From the IMG/VR virus record IMGVR_UViG_3300006919_000622, positions 1 to 20,239 of that record: 20,239 nt of DNA; one strand, 5' to 3'. The notes beneath the pieces were generated by a model. The model was not told where the DNA came from. It saw nothing but the letters and a program-made list of their open reading frames with translations, and ran no database searches. The translations under genes were made by a program, and so were the position numbers. This document shows positions 1 through 9,458 of this stretch, piece by piece. Each line of letters begins with the position of its first letter. Position 1 is the first letter of the stretch. Origin of the DNA: a virus.

Positions 1-335
1 AACTAACCTACCCGACCCCGCCTCGCCCCCCCGGCCACAACCCACCAGTCCTGACCTACCAGAACCGCCGCTCCAAGCTGCACCAAGCCTCGCCGCGACT
101 TGCCTTGCCAGACCTAACCGGACCTAAACCGCCGTACCTAAACCCATGTAGCCCTAACAGACCTGACCATACCGAAACCGCCATTCCATGACTGATCTCA
201 CCGTAACAAACCCCACCTAAACCGCTTTGCCGCGACTTGCGCTGCCAAAACACATCAAACCCGTCCATAACTCAGCATAACCGCCAAAAGCGGCCTCGCC
301 ATACCAGACCTAACCATATCTAACCGCGACCCTAT
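1..335. repeat. C-rich tract with degenerate period-5 repeat, no gene
   Basis: No convincing gene lies here. On the plus strand CC doublets recur every five bases: at 73, 83, 88, 93, 103, 108, 113, 118 and 123, and again at 294, 299, 304, 309, 314 and 324. Read on the minus strand this is a GGYNN-type pentamer array. The tract is strongly strand-asymmetric: the first 60 bases hold 34 C and 7 G. Two exact 12-base direct repeats occur inside it, at 92-103/229-240 and 108-119/304-315. It lies just beyond the terminator that closes the leftward operon. Similar G-rich pentamer tracts are known to me from other phages and prophages, but I cannot name an established function. Confidence 0.75.
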
Positions 336-340
336 ACATA

Positions 341-401
341 AAAAAACAGAGGGGCGGCAGGCGGTACTGATCAATACCACCACATTAGTCGCCGCCCCTC
401 T
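341..401 (-). terminator. Rho-independent terminator of the leftward early operon
   Basis: An 11-base perfect inverted repeat pairs 348-358 with 391-401 (GC-rich GGGGCGGC core). On the minus strand the stem is followed by a run of six T (346-341). The 32-base interior contains a second small pairing, GGTA 363-366 with TACC 375-378, so the RNA may fold as a hairpin with a side stem. The stop codon of the last leftward gene is only five bases upstream of the stem, which fits transcription end for that gene. Confidence 0.85.
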
Positions 402-405
402 TCTC

Positions 406-1164
406 TTAGGCTGCTCTACGCAGCCTTTCCTCTTGTAAGAACTGCATCAACTCAGCAGTCTTTTCATCCGCGCACTCAGGGTTTTCCATCGCAAGTTTTT
501 GGACCTCACGACTTTCCTGTGTAATGCTGTCCCACAACTCTTGATACTCACCCATATCTTCAGAGCCAGCAACTGCAAAAGTGCCATAAGAACCACGCCC
601 CTTTTCCTGACGGAAGTCACCAATGCCCACCATTGCGCCTGCATTGTTTAAAAGAGACATAATAGAGTGAGCGCTGAAAGTAGGCACAACGTACTTGATG
701 TTGATCTCAGCAACCCAATCAGGCAGGAACGCACGAGTACGAACATCCGGCGTCTTGTTCATATCAGCCGATCTTACGATGTCCATCTTCAGGTAAGGCT
801 TGCCCCAAATCTGAATGTGATCACCCGGCACAAAGATGCCACGATTAACATTTGTCTTGTTGATGCCAGCAGTCTCTAGCGCTGCCGTAGCCATGGCACT
901 CTTTACACCCGGCGCGGGGAAGCAAAGATAAGTATCGCCATCAGACTTTGTATACACGCTCTCACGAAACTCCTGTTCAGGATTGTGTTTGATCTCTTTT
1001 TTTTCAGCGGCAGTTTTTCTGCCACCGCCAACAAGCAGATCACGCATGGCCTTTGCAGACATGCTGTTGAAGTACAGCGGCGTCTGACCAATCATACGCA
1101 AAGTAATGTTTCCACGCTTTACACTGTGGATCTCAATAGTGTCATTTGTTTTTTTCGCAACCAT
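406..1164 (-). CDS. phage protein with RAMP/Cas7-like sequence features
   Basis: A 252-residue protein of unknown role, first gene behind its own promoter and last before the terminator. The start is supported by GAGAGG seven bases upstream of ATG. Two regions recall RAMP-superfamily (Cas7/Csm3-like, RRM-fold) proteins: an N-terminal segment with TPLYFNSMS near residues 28-36, and a glycine-rich loop near residues 179-197 (GIG, then EKGRGSYGTF). Between them are KSAMATAA and a conserved-looking WVAEINIKYVVPTFSA stretch. Related uncharacterised proteins occur in many phages, to my knowledge as singletons without CRISPR genes. An RNA- or ssDNA-binding role is inference from the motif pattern only. 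There is no CRISPR array or other cas-type effector nearby. The C-terminal tail (about 200-252) is acidic and helical. Confidence 0.85.
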   Translation of the reverse strand: MVAKKTNDTIEIHSVKRGNITLRMIGQTPLYFNSMSAKAMRDLLVGGGRKTAAEKKEIKHNPEQEFRESVYTKSDGDTYLCFPAPGVKSAMATAALETAGINKTNVNRGIFVPGDHIQIWGKPYLKMDIVRSADMNKTPDVRTRAFLPDWVAEINIKYVVPTFSAHSIMSLLNNAGAMVGIGDFRQEKGRGSYGTFAVAGSEDMGEYQELWDSITQESREVQKLAMENPECADEKTAELMQFLQEERLRRAA

Positions 1165-2570: not shown

Positions 2571-4739
2571 TTACACGTTGTCCCTTGCTGTTACAGGCTC
2601 ATATTCACCCCGACTCATTGGGCCATTGACTGCACCGAGCCAGACCTTGCCGCCCGATGCGGTCAGTTGGAACTTATCAATCCGACCAGCCTGTTGTAGA
2701 TCCCGAACATATTTCTCCAGAGTCTGCTTCCCGATCCCCTGCAATACTTCAGGAGCATCAGCATCCTCAGAGCGCTTATGCACACCGTTATTACCGCTCA
2801 TATGCGTCAGAGCAACACCCTCGCGTTCACAATGGATAATCCAATCAGCCATTGCGTCCAGCTTCATCTCCAAAGCAGAGCCAGTGCTAAGAGCTTTAAT
2901 CTCTTCGGTACGATCATTCAGCAGGCCCGTCATGCTATCCCGAACAAAATGCCTGATGTCACGAGAGGCAGGACCATTAGACTTGACGACTGCGCCATCA
3001 AAGCAGCTATTGCGTTGATATGGTAGGCCCAGACGTTCACATGTTTTCTTGCCCCGGCCCGAATCAACCTGCCACATAGCAAATGATGACCTCACGCCGT
3101 CAACCAAAGCTGTTGTACCCCGGATCAAGTTACGAGCTTGTTCTGGTGTCTTGACCACTGCATCATCCTTAATCTTCGTCATGTGATGACAAACCAGTAC
3201 AGATGCACCTGTTTCTGTAGCGATCCTAGCCAGCAGACCCGTAAGAGCGGCACCCGCAGCAGGGTCAGCATTTACATCAGCGTGTACAAAAGATGCGAGC
3301 GGATCAAAGATAATCAGCTTCAGATTATTCATCTGTATAATTTGTTCGTAAATCTTCTCAAACTCTTCGGTTGTCCCGAACTCGCCCCCGACCTCATTCA
3401 AGATAGCGAATACACCACCCACATTGGGTAATGATACAATCTTCAGATCATTAGCGTAGTTGCGGCGCTCTTCAAAAGGGTCAAGCCTTTCAACGCGCCT
3501 GTGCATCTCAGCCTCATCATCTTCCGCAGTGAAGATAACTACGTTACCGAACTCTTTGACCAGCCCACCGAAAGCAGTAGTCATAGGCTTGCCTGATGCG
3601 ATCTTCATGCCCATGTCCAACGTCATCATGCCCTTACCTGCGTCACCAGCCGCAGCAAACAAAATGGGTACGCCCAACGGAAACGTGCCTTCAATCAAGA
3701 ACTTTTGTTCTGGTGCGTGTCCCTCAAACCGACTGACAAGAAACGAATCATCCAGCAGGTTGATGTTTGTTTTAGTAATCTTTGCCTTAGTGTTGACAAA
3801 GTTTTCGATGTTGAAGCCTTCGGCCAGAGCGTCAGCGGCGTCCCAGCCCTCTGGCTTACCCATAGGCGGTGTCAGCATTGTGACCGACTTTGCACCAGCA
3901 GCTAAAGCCAAGTCCTGAATAAGATCAGCCAGCCGCCTGCCACCTGTATCATTGTCAGGCCATAGGATTAGCTCTTTGCCCTGCAAGGGAGAGAAGTCGA
4001 ACTGTGGCGCTGTTTTCTTCGTCAGCGCACCAGCTCCGCCAATTGTACATGTTGCTGTGTAACCTGCATGATTTAAAGCGTCTGCACATTTCTCGCCTTC
4101 TACCCATACAACACGATCAGATGCTATGATGTTTGGGATATTGTACAAAGGCCTGATGTCAGGAAACTTAGAATACGCGGCCCCTTCGATGAAAGGCCTG
4201 AACTCTTTCTTTGGCTTGCCCTTAGTGTTGAGCATTGGGTTGCCAGCGATGTCCTTGACGTTGTAACGCCGAACAGAAACCAGCACCTCGCCGTCAGCAT
4301 TTGTGTATACATACTCAGCGTCATACGGAGTATTCACATTATACTGCGGCTTAATTGGGTTTTCGATTGGTGCATTATCCCGAACAATTTGCGGCTCTGC
4401 GTTATCAAGATAGTCAGAAAACATATGCTTGATGTCTTGCATCTTCATGCCACGAGCTTCCATCAGGATCTTGACGATACCCCCGATGCCAACACCGCCA
4501 TTAAAATCCTGACCTCGCATGAAATGCTGAGACTGTGGATCAATGTCGATCTTGAGCGATTGTCCCGGATCACCTAGTAGTGACCCGATGTAAAACGTTT
4601 TTCCATGGATGCGACCAGCAGGAAACGTGTCTTGCAAGATCCGAACTTGTTCTGTTCTTGGAACCTTACGAGAAATTTCTTCGACTAAATCATGTGCCGA
4701 TCTACTAGATGTAGTATTGCCAAACCTTACCACACTCAT
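2571..4739 (-). CDS. TOPRIM/RepA-type (AAA_25) primase-helicase
   Basis: 722 residues. The ATG at 4739 is preferred (GAGG nine bases upstream) over in-frame starts at 4757 and 4754, which lack an RBS. The N-terminus resembles the primase zinc-domain scaffold (IDPQSQHFMRGQDFNGGVGIGGIV shape, about 65-90) but without the metal-binding cysteines. A TOPRIM domain follows, with E215 in VEGEK and D262/D264 in PDND. A RecA-fold helicase domain has Walker A GDAGKG (365-370), Walker B LIIFDP (475-480), the CHHMTK motif (517-522) and RGTTALVDGVR (540-550), typical of RepA-like hexameric helicases. It would prime and unwind at the phage replication fork. Whether it synthesises primers itself is uncertain. 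It sits downstream of the Cas4-like nuclease in the replication operon. Confidence 0.92.
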   Translation of the reverse strand: MSVVRFGNTTSSRSAHDLVEEISRKVPRTEQVRILQDTFPAGRIHGKTFYIGSLLGDPGQSLKIDIDPQSQHFMRGQDFNGGVGIGGIVKILMEARGMKMQDIKHMFSDYLDNAEPQIVRDNAPIENPIKPQYNVNTPYDAEYVYTNADGEVLVSVRRYNVKDIAGNPMLNTKGKPKKEFRPFIEGAAYSKFPDIRPLYNIPNIIASDRVVWVEGEKCADALNHAGYTATCTIGGAGALTKKTAPQFDFSPLQGKELILWPDNDTGGRRLADLIQDLALAAGAKSVTMLTPPMGKPEGWDAADALAEGFNIENFVNTKAKITKTNINLLDDSFLVSRFEGHAPEQKFLIEGTFPLGVPILFAAAGDAGKGMMTLDMGMKIASGKPMTTAFGGLVKEFGNVVIFTAEDDEAEMHRRVERLDPFEERRNYANDLKIVSLPNVGGVFAILNEVGGEFGTTEEFEKIYEQIIQMNNLKLIIFDPLASFVHADVNADPAAGAALTGLLARIATETGASVLVCHHMTKIKDDAVVKTPEQARNLIRGTTALVDGVRSSFAMWQVDSGRGKKTCERLGLPYQRNSCFDGAVVKSNGPASRDIRHFVRDSMTGLLNDRTEEIKALSTGSALEMKLDAMADWIIHCEREGVALTHMSGNNGVHKRSEDADAPEVLQGIGKQTLEKYVRDLQQAGRIDKFQLTASGGKVWLGAVNGPMSRGEYEPVTARDNV

Positions 4740-4774
4740 TATATTGTACCTCATCAAGCATTGTTTTTACCTAC

Positions 4775-4794
4775 GGGGTGGTTCACGCCACCCC
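4775..4794. other. compact hairpin enclosing the nuclease stop codon
   Basis: GGGGTGG (4775-4781) pairs perfectly with CCACCCC (4788-4794) around a 6-base loop. The TGA stop of the Cas4-like nuclease gene (4783-4785) lies in the loop. On the minus strand no T-run follows, so it is not a normal leftward terminator. On the plus strand it is followed by TTCTTTTT, so it resembles a terminator for antisense transcription. It may also stabilise or space the nuclease/primase mRNA junction. Confidence 0.55.
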
Positions 4795-5577
4795 TTCTTT
4801 TTCCCAGCAAGTGTTGCGGAACTCACACCACTTACATGCAAAGTAATCATCGTTTTGCGCCACACGAGGCAGCATCTCTTGTGCCTGCGTAGCTTTTATA
4901 ATGTTTACCGCTTTATCGCTTGTCGCTTGCGCGAGAGCCGAATCAAACGGAACAAGCTCTATGTATATCTCGCTTGTGTTCTTGTTCAAAACAGTAAAAC
5001 AACAAGGATTGTCTGACAGGTTCATGTAGGCCTGATACAGAGCAATCTGCGCTGCATATACTGGGTTGGCTTCTGCCACGCCTTTACGCACGAACTCTTT
5101 GAACTTTTTGTCAGACGCAGACTTACACTCCCACAACATAGGGTATGCGAGGTGTACTGGACCACTACATATTACACCGTCAATATGTCCACGGACTTCT
5201 CCATTAGCAGTCTCAAAGCCAAATTGTTCTCCTTGTTTATCTGTTCGCAGATCAAATCCGGCGTCACGGAAGTACATGATCATCATATCTTCGATGGTGT
5301 GACCCAGAGCAAATGTTCTTAATGTGTTGGCTGGAAACCCTTTACCTTCGTCAATTGTCATGCCGATGTATCGGTATTGCAGCTTTCTTGAGCATGGATC
5401 GCCCAAAGATGATGCGCCAAGATACTTGCGCTTCGACTGCTTGCGTTCCTTTTCAATGACGGCCCGATTCAACTCAGCGATGATGTCTTCAGAATGGGAT
5501 GTCGTAATCGAATTGTTCTGGTTTTCTGCCGTACTTGTTAAAAAGGTCTGCAAGGTGTTCTTCTGTGTAGACATCAT
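4783..5577 (-). CDS. Cas4-like PD-(D/E)XK exonuclease with Fe-S cysteines
   Basis: 264 residues from the ATG at 5577, with a second ATG directly after it; AAGGGA lies upstream. RecB-family nuclease motifs are in order: H93 in GHTIED, D133 in GHIDG, E150 and K152 in WECKS, and Q177...Y181. Four cysteines fit a Cas4/AddB-type iron-sulphur cluster: C62 (DPCSRK) and C248, C251, C257 (CKWC...C). Expected activity is ssDNA or end-directed exonuclease for recombination or replication. The first ~30 residues are Asn/Ser/Thr-rich and overlap the preceding gene by 89 bases, so the true start could be further downstream. No CRISPR genes are nearby, and phage Cas4-like nucleases commonly occur alone. Confidence 0.88.
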   Translation of the reverse strand: MMSTQKNTLQTFLTSTAENQNNSITTSHSEDIIAELNRAVIEKERKQSKRKYLGASSLGDPCSRKLQYRYIGMTIDEGKGFPANTLRTFALGHTIEDMMIMYFRDAGFDLRTDKQGEQFGFETANGEVRGHIDGVICSGPVHLAYPMLWECKSASDKKFKEFVRKGVAEANPVYAAQIALYQAYMNLSDNPCCFTVLNKNTSEIYIELVPFDSALAQATSDKAVNIIKATQAQEMLPRVAQNDDYFACKWCEFRNTCWEKEGVA

Positions 5578-5713
5578 CAATCCCTTCTACTTTCTGGATA
5601 ACCAGAACAATTCCCACTACTTCGTCCATCGACAGATCTTGGAGTCGTTTATCCCACCCAACTTTGCCGAACAATTCTCCTACTTGCTTTAATGCACCGT
5701 CCTGCTCGCCCAT
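5489..5713 (-). CDS. small protein ending in an SSB-like acidic tip
   Basis: 74 residues, with GAAGGG eight bases before the ATG at 5713. The centre is helical (LQDLSMDEVVGIVLVIQKVEG, then EEHLADLFNKYG). The C-terminus FDYDIPF closely resembles the end of bacterial SSB (DDDIPF), the tip that docks replication and repair proteins. There is no visible OB-fold, and the protein is far too short for a full SSB. It overlaps the upstream gene by 25 bases and the nuclease start by 89 bases. A role as an adaptor for replisome partners is inference. Confidence 0.65.
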   Translation of the reverse strand: MGEQDGALKQVGELFGKVGWDKRLQDLSMDEVVGIVLVIQKVEGIDDVYTEEHLADLFNKYGRKPEQFDYDIPF

Positions 5714-5958
5714 CCTTCTGGCCCTTCCAAATCTCCAAATGTCGCGCAGTAATAGTCAGGATGGCCCTGTATATCCACAACGACTTCGGCCCGAACAAAG
5801 TCATCTTCCTTGCCGATTATTAGTTTACAAAGCAGCTTAGTCACTGCTTCTTGCAATTCCTCTACGTTCTCTGGATCCCCACACATCATGAAGTATGATG
5901 CCTCCATGGAGACATTTTCTTTAAACAGTACGTTAAATGTTACTTCACCACGGTTCAT
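5689..5958 (-). CDS. small phage protein, unknown
   Basis: 89 residues from the ATG at 5958, which overlaps the helicase stop codon as ATGA. This is preferred over an ATG at 6018 that would lie 64 bases inside the helicase gene. Predicted beta/alpha alternation (VTFNVLF, EELQEAVTKLLCKLI, FVRAEVVVDI) suggests a small compact domain. It ends GWASRTVH. Family not recognised. Translational coupling to the helicase implies co-production. Confidence 0.65.
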   Translation of the reverse strand: MNRGEVTFNVLFKENVSMEASYFMMCGDPENVEELQEAVTKLLCKLIIGKEDDFVRAEVVVDIQGHPDYYCATFGDLEGPEGWASRTVH

Positions 5959-7634
5959 GCGCTCTGCTTCTCTGCAACTATGTTGTAAACAATATTGTCT
6001 ACAAATCTCTTGTTCCAAACATAATTAAGCATACAAGCAGCCCTGTACTTGGTCCAAGAAAAATCTAGTGCGCTTACCACTACGCCATGTTGTGCCAACA
6101 AATCTCTTTGCTTTTGACTAGGAGAGTCATTCAGCCAACGCTTTGTTTTGTTTGCAGTATCACCAGACTCATTCTGCCTCATGAAGTCATCAGCAGCCGC
6201 CATAACCTGACGCTTAGTACCGATGCTAATCACTCTGGTTTTGCCCTTGTTCTTCTTTACGATAGCCATGCAAAGGCCGTCCACTTCGGCGATAAGAGCA
6301 AAGCCATTAAAGCCTGCCGCAGCCAAACACGCGCCTGTACCGAACAAGTCGATCCAACGGAACGGCGATCTGTTCATCAGATCAACTTCAGTTAGAACAA
6401 AATTATCAAGGATTTCTGGCTCTGGTTTCTCACCTTCATGACCACAAATAGGACATTCTTTAACACCAAGTGGTATCTCTGCCTTACAATTAGAACAAAT
6501 CTTAATAGGAGGCTCGCCATTGCCGCTTGCTTCTTTACCGTCAAGATCCACAGCATCATCAAGTGAGCCATGCGTCAGCACAGACGTACCAAAGTCCATA
6601 ACAATGCAATCTGATTTTATCACGCCCGGAAATTCATCTTGATCTACTGTGCGTAAACCCCGACCAATCATCTGCACCATAGTGGCCTTGTATGAGCAAG
6701 GGCGAGTAAGAACAATGCAAGATACAGGAGGTGAATCAAAACCCTCTGTAAGAACAGCTACGTTAACAACGACTTGAATATCGCCATTGCTCAAATCTGC
6801 AAGTATTTCCGCACGTTCATCTTTAGGCGTTTTGCCTGTGACCATTGCTGCGTCAATACCATAGCTAATAAATTCTTTGCATAAATCTTCGGCATGCTTA
6901 ATGGTAGAGCAGAACACGATTGTCTGACGATCACCAGCTTTTGCATCCCATTCTTCGACCACACGTTGATTGATTGCACGGTGATTCATGATCTTCTCAA
7001 CATCCGCCATGTCAAAGTCAGATGCGGACTTGCGTACTTGACGCAATTCGTCCTGTACCCCGACATCAATTACATAAGTCTTGGGGGGTACGAGAAAGCC
7101 TTCACGGATTAATGTAGAGATTTCGATCTGGTGACTACAGTTCGTAAAAACGTCCCGTAAGCCCTTCTTGTCACCTCTGTTGGGTGTGGCTGTAAAGCCA
7201 ACGATTTGCACCCCCTCATTGGCCTTCTTAGCGGCCTTAATGATACGTTGATATGTATCCGCAATGGTATGATGCGCTTCATCAACCACGATCAGATCAA
7301 CCTTGGGCATGTTCTCCAAGTTCTTCTCACGGGATAGCGTCTGAACCATTGCAAATACAGCATCACCAGACCAATCCTTTTGAGCAGCGTTCACTTCACT
7401 GATATTCAAAGACGGATTAACACGGTGAAATTTGTTGGAATTTTGTGAAACCAATTCGTCACGATGCTGCAAGACAAGCACATTTTGTGAACTCTTATGG
7501 CGTTTGCCAACCAGAGCGGAGAGCATGATTGTCTTTCCGGCTCCAGTTGGCGCAACGACTAAAGTGTTACCGTGCTTATCAAGTGCATCAGAAGCGTCAT
7601 TGATTGCAATCTTCTGATACTCTCGCAGGATCAT
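5955..7634 (-). CDS. DEAH superfamily 2 helicase with zinc ribbon
   Basis: 559 residues. Motifs in order: Q-motif-like REYQ (4-7), Walker A APTGAGKT (28-35), DEAH (118-121), TATP (148-151), GFDSPP and QMIGRGLR of the second RecA-like lobe, then a four-cysteine zinc ribbon (CSNC...CPIC) after the helicase core. The C-terminal segment contains SPSQKQRDLLAQHG, a type of module seen after the zinc ribbon in phage helicases. The layout matches phage SF2 helicases of the UvsW/RAD3-like group, which remodel branched DNA during replication and recombination. It starts three bases after the winged-helix gene and couples by ATGA to the next gene. The RBS is weak. Confidence 0.92.
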   Translation of the reverse strand: MILREYQKIAINDASDALDKHGNTLVVAPTGAGKTIMLSALVGKRHKSSQNVLVLQHRDELVSQNSNKFHRVNPSLNISEVNAAQKDWSGDAVFAMVQTLSREKNLENMPKVDLIVVDEAHHTIADTYQRIIKAAKKANEGVQIVGFTATPNRGDKKGLRDVFTNCSHQIEISTLIREGFLVPPKTYVIDVGVQDELRQVRKSASDFDMADVEKIMNHRAINQRVVEEWDAKAGDRQTIVFCSTIKHAEDLCKEFISYGIDAAMVTGKTPKDERAEILADLSNGDIQVVVNVAVLTEGFDSPPVSCIVLTRPCSYKATMVQMIGRGLRTVDQDEFPGVIKSDCIVMDFGTSVLTHGSLDDAVDLDGKEASGNGEPPIKICSNCKAEIPLGVKECPICGHEGEKPEPEILDNFVLTEVDLMNRSPFRWIDLFGTGACLAAAGFNGFALIAEVDGLCMAIVKKNKGKTRVISIGTKRQVMAAADDFMRQNESGDTANKTKRWLNDSPSQKQRDLLAQHGVVVSALDFSWTKYRAACMLNYVWNKRFVDNIVYNIVAEKQSA

Positions 7635-7637
7635 TGT

Positions 7638-7985
7638 CTAGCCCAACGTGTACCTGTGAGAGCGTGACGCTTTCTCATAGTTTTTGTAGACCTTGTATCC
7701 GGCCTTCTTGATAAGAGTTACCTCTTGATAAATAGAACCCTTGCTTTTTCCAGTGGCTTCTGCGGCCTCTGAAACTGTAACGCCCTTCTTGCGTGACATA
7801 AGACGGAGTGTCTTGGCACAAAACGCAGGTACTTTTTTGTCAAGTTTAGTGGGGGACTTTACGGCCCCGGCGTCCCCCGTACCGAGTTTAGCGACCTGCG
7901 AAGGTTTGCCGCTAAGAGGTTTAAATGGCTCGCTCTGTTCACACTTGCCACTAATAAACTGCCACAATGATGTTAACGCGCCCAT
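7638..7985 (-). CDS. winged-helix DNA-binding protein
   Basis: 115 residues. The C-terminal half (about 54-115) reads as a winged helix: LRLMSRKKGVTVSEAAEATG, a recognition helix SKGSIYQEVTLIKKAG, then a basic wing and C-terminal strand. The N-terminal half is low-complexity and probably disordered. AGGGGGT precedes the start. The gene overlaps the ssDNA-binding protein gene by 13 bases and sits just ahead of the helicase. It may be a regulator or an origin/replication accessory factor; the sequence does not decide between these. Confidence 0.75.
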   Translation of the reverse strand: MGALTSLWQFISGKCEQSEPFKPLSGKPSQVAKLGTGDAGAVKSPTKLDKKVPAFCAKTLRLMSRKKGVTVSEAAEATGKSKGSIYQEVTLIKKAGYKVYKNYEKASRSHRYTLG

Positions 7986-8602
7986 GATGGTGCTACCCCC
8001 TGTTGTGGTGTTGCGGGAGCAGCGGGTGCTTGCATTGGCTGTGCTGGCGGTGTCAGCGTAGCAGAGCCAGTAACAACGTTGCCACTAGAGATATACTTCT
8101 GAGAGTCGGGGGTCAAGACAGTCTTCATCTTGTTCTTGGCTGGATAGCCATTGTTTCCCGGCTCCACACCAATCGTAAAGCAAATCTCCATGTTGTTAAT
8201 CATGTTGATGCCTTGGATAGATGCGCGTTTAGCCCTAGCGTCCTCGCTTTCATCTTTGGGCGAGATGCCGAACCCACTATCGACCATCTGCTTAATGGTG
8301 TTCAGGCCAATCTTCTTGGCTTTCGACATGCCGTTGTCATCACGGGCATCACCATCAACGAAGATGTTTTGCCACACCTTGCGCTTATCGAATGGACCGC
8401 CAACGATGGTTAACTCAATAGGCAACCATTTTGCGCTAGTGGTTTTGGATTGTTTGAAGAATGTGCCTGCACCATACTCCGGCATTTCAATGTCACCACC
8501 TTGTAGTGACACGATTGCGCGAACAATAGTTCCATCAGGCATTAGTTCAAAGTCACCGCCGCCGGAGTTTTCCATTGGTGGTACGTTATTTAGATCAAGC
8601 AT
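7973..8602 (-). CDS. probable ssDNA-binding protein, DUF669-like
   Basis: 209 residues, with GAGGA eight bases upstream. The N-terminal 150 residues look like the DUF669 OB-fold group: DGTIVRAIVSL strand, LPIELTIVGGPFDKRKVWQNIFV (GPF.KRKV..N), and a helical GLNTIKQMVDSG segment. A Pro/Ala/Gln tail (about 175-205) follows, ending in SWAR rather than an acidic SSB tip. Its place immediately after the Sak4-like ATPase fits an ssDNA binder that partners single-strand annealing. Assignment is by pattern, so moderately sure. Confidence 0.75.
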   Translation of the reverse strand: MLDLNNVPPMENSGGGDFELMPDGTIVRAIVSLQGGDIEMPEYGAGTFFKQSKTTSAKWLPIELTIVGGPFDKRKVWQNIFVDGDARDDNGMSKAKKIGLNTIKQMVDSGFGISPKDESEDARAKRASIQGINMINNMEICFTIGVEPGNNGYPAKNKMKTVLTPDSQKYISSGNVVTGSATLTPPAQPMQAPAAPATPQQGVAPSWAR

Positions 8603-8603
8603 T

Positions 8604-9458
8604 CTAGGAGTCCTCTTCTGTATTGTTAACCATTTGTGGGTTTACAAACTGCATAGCTTCTGGTCTTGGGCCAGACATCTTATCAAACAGCTTGCCAAGA
8701 TGCGGCTCTTCAATTTCTTCAAGCCTGCCGCTTCTGTCTTTGGCAGGGTATCCCCACCTATTTAAAGTTGTACACACGAAAGCCCTAAACATAGTCCCAT
8801 CGTCTGCTGGGATTGTCGTCATAGTAATTAACTCATCGACAATACCGGGCAACTCACGCCCTGTCTTTGCACCCTCAATCTGCAAGTCGTAACTAAGGCG
8901 TCCATATTCATCAGTCTTCTCATCAAGAATCCCGACAAAGATCACGTTCTTTTCACGAATATGCTGAAGGTGTGTTAGCCAAGCCATCATCTCACGGCCC
9001 TGCGCCCCATACACTGCACGAGTGTCTAGCTTGCCTGTCCGCTCTGATCTAGCCTCTGGCTGATTTTGATTGTGCGTGAAGCATAAACGTCCAGCCACCG
9101 TGATACTATCAATGAAGATCGTATCGTATTTCGATAACACAGCGTTTGGATCACCATACGTCTGACACACATACTCATAGTGTGACATGCTGTACGGAGA
9201 GTCCTCGCTCAACGCAGGGTTTCCCCCGCCAAGGAAGCATGCAAAGTCTCTACACTCTTGCCAAGTGCGTGGTCTAATGACATCGACCTCACATCCTTCA
9301 ATGGCGGCATCACCAGCCTCTAAGTCCATGAACAATGTTTTGCTCATGTCTAGTGTACGCACCAGTGATGTTTTTCCCACACCAGACTGACCCGCGATCA
9401 CAATCTTGTGACCGCGCTTTTCTGCCAGCCTCTCTTCTGCGGAAATGATTTTTAACAT
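8604..9458 (-). CDS. Sak4-like RecA-fold ATPase (AAA_24, single-strand annealing type)
   Basis: 284 residues. Walker A GQSGVGKT (23-30), DLEAGD (45-50), Walker B YDTIFIDSI (111-119), a conserved HN after it (FTHNQNQ), and the later strand NVIFVGILDEK. This is the phage AAA_24/Sak4 arrangement, a shortened RecA/Rad51 core that acts with an SSB in recombination. GGAGGG lies six bases before ATG, and the start overlaps the previous stop by one base (TAATG). The next gene is the ssDNA-binding candidate, the usual partner. The full-length core and motifs suggest it is functional. Confidence 0.88.
   Translation of the reverse strand: MLKIISAEERLAEKRGHKIVIAGQSGVGKTSLVRTLDMSKTLFMDLEAGDAAIEGCEVDVIRPRTWQECRDFACFLGGGNPALSEDSPYSMSHYEYVCQTYGDPNAVLSKYDTIFIDSITVAGRLCFTHNQNQPEARSERTGKLDTRAVYGAQGREMMAWLTHLQHIREKNVIFVGILDEKTDEYGRLSYDLQIEGAKTGRELPGIVDELITMTTIPADDGTMFRAFVCTTLNRWGYPAKDRSGRLEEIEEPHLGKLFDKMSGPRPEAMQFVNPQMVNNTEEDS

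Follow-up and report, generated by a model that had tools for sequence, protein, structure and literature searches.

A period-5 repeat tract beside a RAMP-family Vipr homologue in an IMG/VR phage record as a very probable VIPR guide array against rival phages

The stretch of DNA that we analyzed in its entirety, hereafter called the window, is a virus record of 20,239 bp from IMG/VR, the left end of which carries a tract of five-base periodicity, a hairpin and a gene of 252 codons that are arranged in the following way.

406-1164, minus strand: vipr, gene for a 252-aa RAMP-family Vipr homologue (phrog_4652; profile against PDB 36pp, hhalign, AlphaFold2)
348-401, minus strand: terminator-like hairpin with a T-run, between vipr and the array (inverted repeat; fold of -38.4 kcal/mol)
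1-347, minus strand: very probable vrRNA (VIPR guide) array, cut by the contig end (period-5 test, 75/75 relatives, grammar)
283-347, minus strand: T-run and then the irregular leading module m1, the first stretch after the hairpin (parsed by the array grammar)
224-282, minus strand: guide module m2, 11 units, NN = AT GA AT CG TT GT TT AG AA GC AA
180-223, minus strand: guide module m3, 8 units, NN = TA GG TT AC GA CA AT AT
131-179, minus strand: guide module m4, 9 units, NN = TC AT CA CT AG TA GG TA AC
67-130, minus strand: guide module m5, 12 units, NN = TA CC TA CT AA AA GC GA TT GC TT GC
1-66, minus strand: m6, a partial irregular module at the contig end

The names in this list refer to VIPR (Viral Interference Programmable Repeat), which the main text of a 2026 preprint describes as a system used between phages, with a RAMP-family Vipr protein, a vap gene and vrRNAs of 9-16 YNNGG repeats, the NN pairs of which recognise dsDNA with a 1-nt skip (PMC13142463). 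Elsewhere in the window (2571-9458, minus strand) lies a leftward run of replication and recombination genes (primase/helicase, Cas4-domain exonuclease, DNA helicase and Sak4-like annealing protein).

An earlier note on this DNA had described a period-5 repeat at 1-335, and the plus strand of this interval does show an identity at lag 5 of 0.427 vs 0.303 in 2000 dinucleotide shuffles (z 5.3), the corresponding z values at lags 10 and 15 being 6.0 and 4.8. Pairs of CC doublets separated by five bases number 26 against 12.4 expected, a count reached by none of the 2000 shuffles, and the period-5 signal is unmatched anywhere else in the 20 kb of the window. The register of CC doublets, which had been considered strict, is present in two runs (starting at 73, 83, 88, 93, 103, 108, 113, 118 and 123, and then at 294, 299, 304, 309, 314 and 324), but the slots at 78, 98 and 319 are not CC. 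The note was right about the composition of the first 60 bases, in which 34 C and 7 G correspond to its ratio of about 5:1, and about a strand-asymmetric GGYNN array of the minus strand situated just past a strong terminator, since the hairpin at 348-401 is real on the basis of both its inverted repeat and its fold. Where 12-base direct repeats had been reported, short repeats are present but sit inside larger imperfect ones. Three aspects had been overlooked: the GGYNN register shifts by one base at each GGC|GGT joint, the array at 1-347 runs off the contig end and the adjacent gene appears to belong to the same system. A protein-coding reading was rejected because the register changes at the joints and no reading frame is common to the arrays of relatives, consistent with the original view that the periodicity is not that of codons; the GGYNN array itself is conserved in related phages, with which a comparison had been asked for. 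The observation withstood both refuting conditions named in the note, a lag-5 signal no higher than in shuffles and a conserved protein frame across the tract.

On the minus strand, the array follows a simple grammar of GGT(YNNGG)nC blocks with CGGT joints, and 1247 of the 1511 joint-to-joint intervals of 30-110 nt have a length of 5n+4. The consensus of the unit over 1183 modules is N N G(96%) K(94%) Y(95%), with NN near-even and GTY instead of GGY in 24% of units, while n usually lies between 7 and 13 units per module (8-12 in modules m2-m5 of the window). Among homologous modules, the NN positions were found to be no more conserved than the scaffold positions. Close sister phages have some modules in common and differ in others while the order remains the same, a situation that looks like module exchange. 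The detector of arrays was verified with Escherichia phage SUSP1 (KT454805) as positive control, in which it finds the known vrRNA loci as repeat tracts at 27894-27966 and 29174-29226 that flank two small genes. A structured 3' tail such as that observed for comparison in SUSP1 was absent after the modules, which join directly via CGGT; near-identical direct repeats with unique spacers, as in a CRISPR array, were not found in the tract, which contains only imperfect repeat families, and no Rfam family matched the array.

Among solved structures, PDB 36pp or 'SUSP1 Vipr protein' is the one good match to the profile of the 252-aa family (E 3.1e-7), and in the G-loop region hhalign aligns the family with the SUSP1 gene at 28474-29061 at 96.7% (E 3.3e-10), the similarity to SUSP1 Vipr being limited to about 55 residues around this loop. 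AlphaFold2 gave confident models, with pLDDT values of 86.8 for the 406-1164 protein (gene A) and 85.7 for the product of a second gene discussed below, gene B. From its sequence relationships, the 406-1164 protein can be classed as a predicted RAMP-family Vipr. Searches for its relatives produced 241 candidate IMG/VR stretches, and 80 loci were examined. A G-rich period-5 array lies downstream on the same strand in all 75 relatives with at least 250 nt downstream, and the strands of array and vipr agree in 207 cases vs 1 opposite. A second array at L106:1717-1957 (minus strand) is the sole array near a Vipr to lie on the other strand from the Vipr gene. Of the 113 new loci among the matches listed for a DNA pattern of the array alone, 101 contained vipr, gene B or both (A and B in 77, A only in 13, B only in 11, neither in 12).

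Gene B, the second conserved gene by the arrays, encodes a protein of about 165 aa (MAYFSKKTKQRIIDDYL...) and would lie beyond the end of the window; in the sister phages L002-L007 the array continues past the equivalent of the window's edge and is followed by gene B, which is conserved beside the array in relatives. The order of these elements varies (A-array-B, A-B-array, B-A-array, or arrays on both sides). Gene B has no relative at a meaningful level in Pfam, PHROG, NCBIfam or PDB, nor any similarity to SUSP1 28031-28471, taken as Vap1; it is solely on account of its position that we regard it as a candidate Vap. Of note, some loci (L090, L133, L160, L100 and eight others) have an array with no detectable Vipr or gene B in the stretch examined, and because some of them extend for several kb on both sides, these guide arrays may be orphans or go with a Vipr that is more distantly related. 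Vipr relatives with an adjoining period-5 array are also present, annotated as hypothetical, in Gordonia phage ODay (gp19, L195:4980-5824) and Mycobacterium phage Donkeykong (gp49, L196:3499-4579), and a Vipr 67% identical to the 252-aa family occurs in a sequence labelled Candidatus Nealsonbacteria (L210, PWHM01000009.1), probably a misbinned phage contig.

We then considered whether the NN pairs can be decoded. For a first set, 746 unique modules were decoded at skips 0-3 against about 1.5 Mb of loci with the arrays masked, and the matches at E<0.001 were 10 at skip 1 and 0/0/0 at skips 0/2/3, and shuffled NN read at skip 1 gave 1 match; among the genes matched are those for the large and small subunits of terminase, the head maturation protease and the major head protein. 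A second set, consisting of the 76 contigs retrieved by m2 with the m2 site masked, gave 16 matches at skip 1, 0/0/0 at skips 0/2/3 and 0 for shuffled NN, in genes including those for DNA polymerase, primase/helicase, exonuclease, ribonucleotide reductase and integrase; the counts of matches are not all independent because related modules share targets. The skip base was the third codon position of the longest ORF in 15/15 matches examined in the second set. An earlier version of the skip test, with 170 modules scored by raw mismatch counts, had shown little, whereas the full set with E-values is significant. The NN pairs specify their target with a 1-nt skip, and the skip base falls mostly at codon wobble positions. 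As for self-targeting, no module matches the remainder of the window well. Two additional observations concern modules of other phages: the RHTAAS motif of integrases is matched in antisense by modules from several phages in target contigs (L333:12142-13086 and L303:3317-4159), and three modules, of L007, L035 and L042, show 12-base matches to tRNA arms without any skip, for example GGATTCGAACCACT, about 1 being expected by chance according to our own estimate.

The guides of the window could be decoded in the same way. Searched in IMG/VR as an 18-base gapped pattern, m2 has 76 exact matches, 75 of which are in frame, with the skip at wobble, in endonuclease I ORFs (phrog_945; target peptide KHLLIKEQxPDIDIRFVFSNANAKLYKGS); they carry 38 different skip-base strings, and all 22 NN bases are matched in 12 cases. 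These sequences point to T7-like endonuclease I as the target of m2. Module m4 has five exact matches, four of which fall in the 5' half of tRNA-Arg(tct) genes, and the version of m4 in sister phage L002 matches tRNA-Arg target sequences at 18/18 positions; the control at skip 2 gave 1 match and that at skip 0 gave 21 scattered matches with no common gene. The evidence points to the tRNA-Arg(tct) gene as the m4 target. For m3, only two of 21 exact matches are in the wobble frame, both in T7-like RNA polymerase, which is its probable target, while the other 19 look like chance. For m5, two matches of 20/24 with the skip at wobble lie in gp2.5-like SSB genes of L209 and L340, and such a gene is its probable target; both assignments are weaker than those of m2 and m4. 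Since about 20 chance matches arise for AT-rich patterns, the argument for these targets rests on gene identity and frame and not on counts alone. Taken together, the three T7-like targets (endonuclease I, SSB and RNA polymerase) are coherent with one another.

The tRNA target raises the alternative that the tract is a real VIPR array acting mainly on the host, for instance by silencing a host tRNA-Arg gene. Module m4 matches tRNA-Arg D-arm sequence and its core (TC AT CA CT AG TA) is kept in 8/9 module variants from divergent phages, with variation in the part facing the acceptor stem, and related tRNA-Arg sites with 2 mismatches are found in two alphaproteobacterial genomes. However, the exact tRNA matches are located in viral contigs, and m2 together with most decoded guides of relatives matches replication, packaging and head genes of phages, so that we regard a mainly host-directed action as improbable.

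Less probable still is a role of the tract at the DNA level, as an origin, a packaging site or an array of protein-binding sites recognised by a repeat-binding protein, for example the product of the neighbouring gene, in which case the phage matches would be a by-product of recombination or chance. Its location past a terminator-like hairpin and its tight linkage to gene A would fit such an element, but the NN positions are near-random and module-specific, the phage matches reach significance with a skip of 1 nt alone and fail to do so when NN are shuffled, the skip bases lie at codon wobble positions and gapped matches cannot come from recombination. The identity of the tract as an RNA guide array follows from these properties, namely from NN pairs that are near-random, differ from module to module and spell out genes of other phages at a single skip length. 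Consequently, the suggestions in the earlier note of an origin, a packaging region or a DNA-level role have found no support, and those of an R-loop or stacked GG structure are equally unsupported given that NN decode to other phages' genes; its idea of a protein array site survives in part, for a protein, Vipr, is expected to bind the array, but as RNA. Readings as origin, packaging site, R-loop or G-quadruplex were dropped because the array is tied to vipr and decodable, and those as Rho site, CsrA sponge or TRAP-like RNA site because the NN positions carry target information.

A functionless, decayed expansion of the microsatellite type is hardly credible, for although the repeats are imperfect and many units close to the contig end are irregular, the grammar and position are common to 75/75 relatives, the joints keep their 5n+4 spacing and targets are decodable, while expansion by slippage or duplication followed by decay, as had been proposed, is not supported by NN that are module-specific and decodable at one skip.

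We consider it very probable, instead, that the tract is a VIPR vrRNA array beside vipr and that a Vipr RNP represses genes of rival phages, the transcription, RNP formation and repression being transferred from the preprint. The array would be transcribed leftward as GGT(YNNGG)nC modules joined as CGGT, and the RAMP-family Vipr encoded at 406-1164 would coat the repeat RNA via its GGY scaffold, leaving each NN free, as in SUSP1 VIPR. The NN pairs would then bind dsDNA and pass over one target base from each pair to the next (NNxNNx...), by which the skipped base lands on codon wobble positions. The bound complex may repress the genes of competing phages, or disable them otherwise with the candidate Vap encoded by gene B. 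Its predicted targets would be T7-like podophages (endonuclease I, SSB and RNA polymerase, and in relatives also DNA polymerase, primase, exonuclease and integrase) and tailed phages with HK97-type head genes (terminase, protease and capsid), in addition to the tRNA-Arg gene. By analogy with SUSP1, RNA-guided repression of competing phages is the most likely role.

Genome contigs with Vipr relatives (16 in number, most with arrays) are mostly alphaproteobacterial, including Pararhodobacter, Maricaulis, Methylobacterium, Bradyrhizobium and others, which fits with, but does not prove, an alphaproteobacterial host for the phage of the window; from the company they keep, we infer that these phages are marine. 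It is with some reserve, and at slightly less than even chances, that we propose a tail-less, concatenated multi-guide variant of VIPR in marine phages, probably of Alphaproteobacteria, directed against T7-like podophages through their replication genes and against other tailed phages through their packaging and head genes, with one conserved guide at tRNA-Arg(UCU), an arrangement and target class that would be new relative to the main text of the preprint.

VIPR is known from that single 2026 preprint with few laboratory systems (PMC13142463). Membership in it places the window within an already known kind, and its architecture and targets go beyond what the main text of the preprint describes; the window family may correspond to the 'staggered arrays' of its figure S18 (PMC13142463). 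The tract has the alternating GGY/NN pattern, with YNNGG repeats or a related consensus, that defines vrRNAs as repeats of 9-16 units, but we have not filed it as VIPR type II because the invariable structured 3' tail of this type is absent. With the type II VIPR of SUSP1 it shares a RAMP-family Vipr gene and, in relatives, a second small gene, as well as intergenic YNNGG repeats with about equal units per guide and the 1-nt skip code with its skip base at wobble and its targets in competing phages. In contrast to SUSP1, many modules are arranged head to tail via CGGT joints, the scaffold is GKY (GGY or GTY), Vipr has 252 aa vs 195 aa, gene B has no sequence relationship to Vap1 and the guides are aimed at genes of T7-like and HK97-type phages and at a tRNA-Arg gene, whereas those of SUSP1 are aimed at satellites. 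The window family provides an independent group of phages in which the 1-nt skip code is recoverable by computation alone, in clean contrast with other skips, and its specific natural targets render conflicts between uncultured phages readable from sequence.

RNA sites of the TRAP type also have a five-nucleotide period read by a protein oligomer, with a conserved NAG triplet; the present array differs in having no such triplet and in carrying target information at its variable positions. The likeness to Class 1 CRISPR-Cas systems, in which Cas7, Cas5 and Cas6 RAMPs act with crRNA, lies in the RAMP family with its G-loop and in the periodically interrupted pairing of guide and target, although CRISPR repeats and spacers are absent here and the guide consists of NN pairs in a 5-nt repeat instead of a contiguous spacer. 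Large multi-guide arrays, the modules of which differ between near-identical phages, resemble a primitive guide memory and bear on the beginnings of CRISPR arrays.
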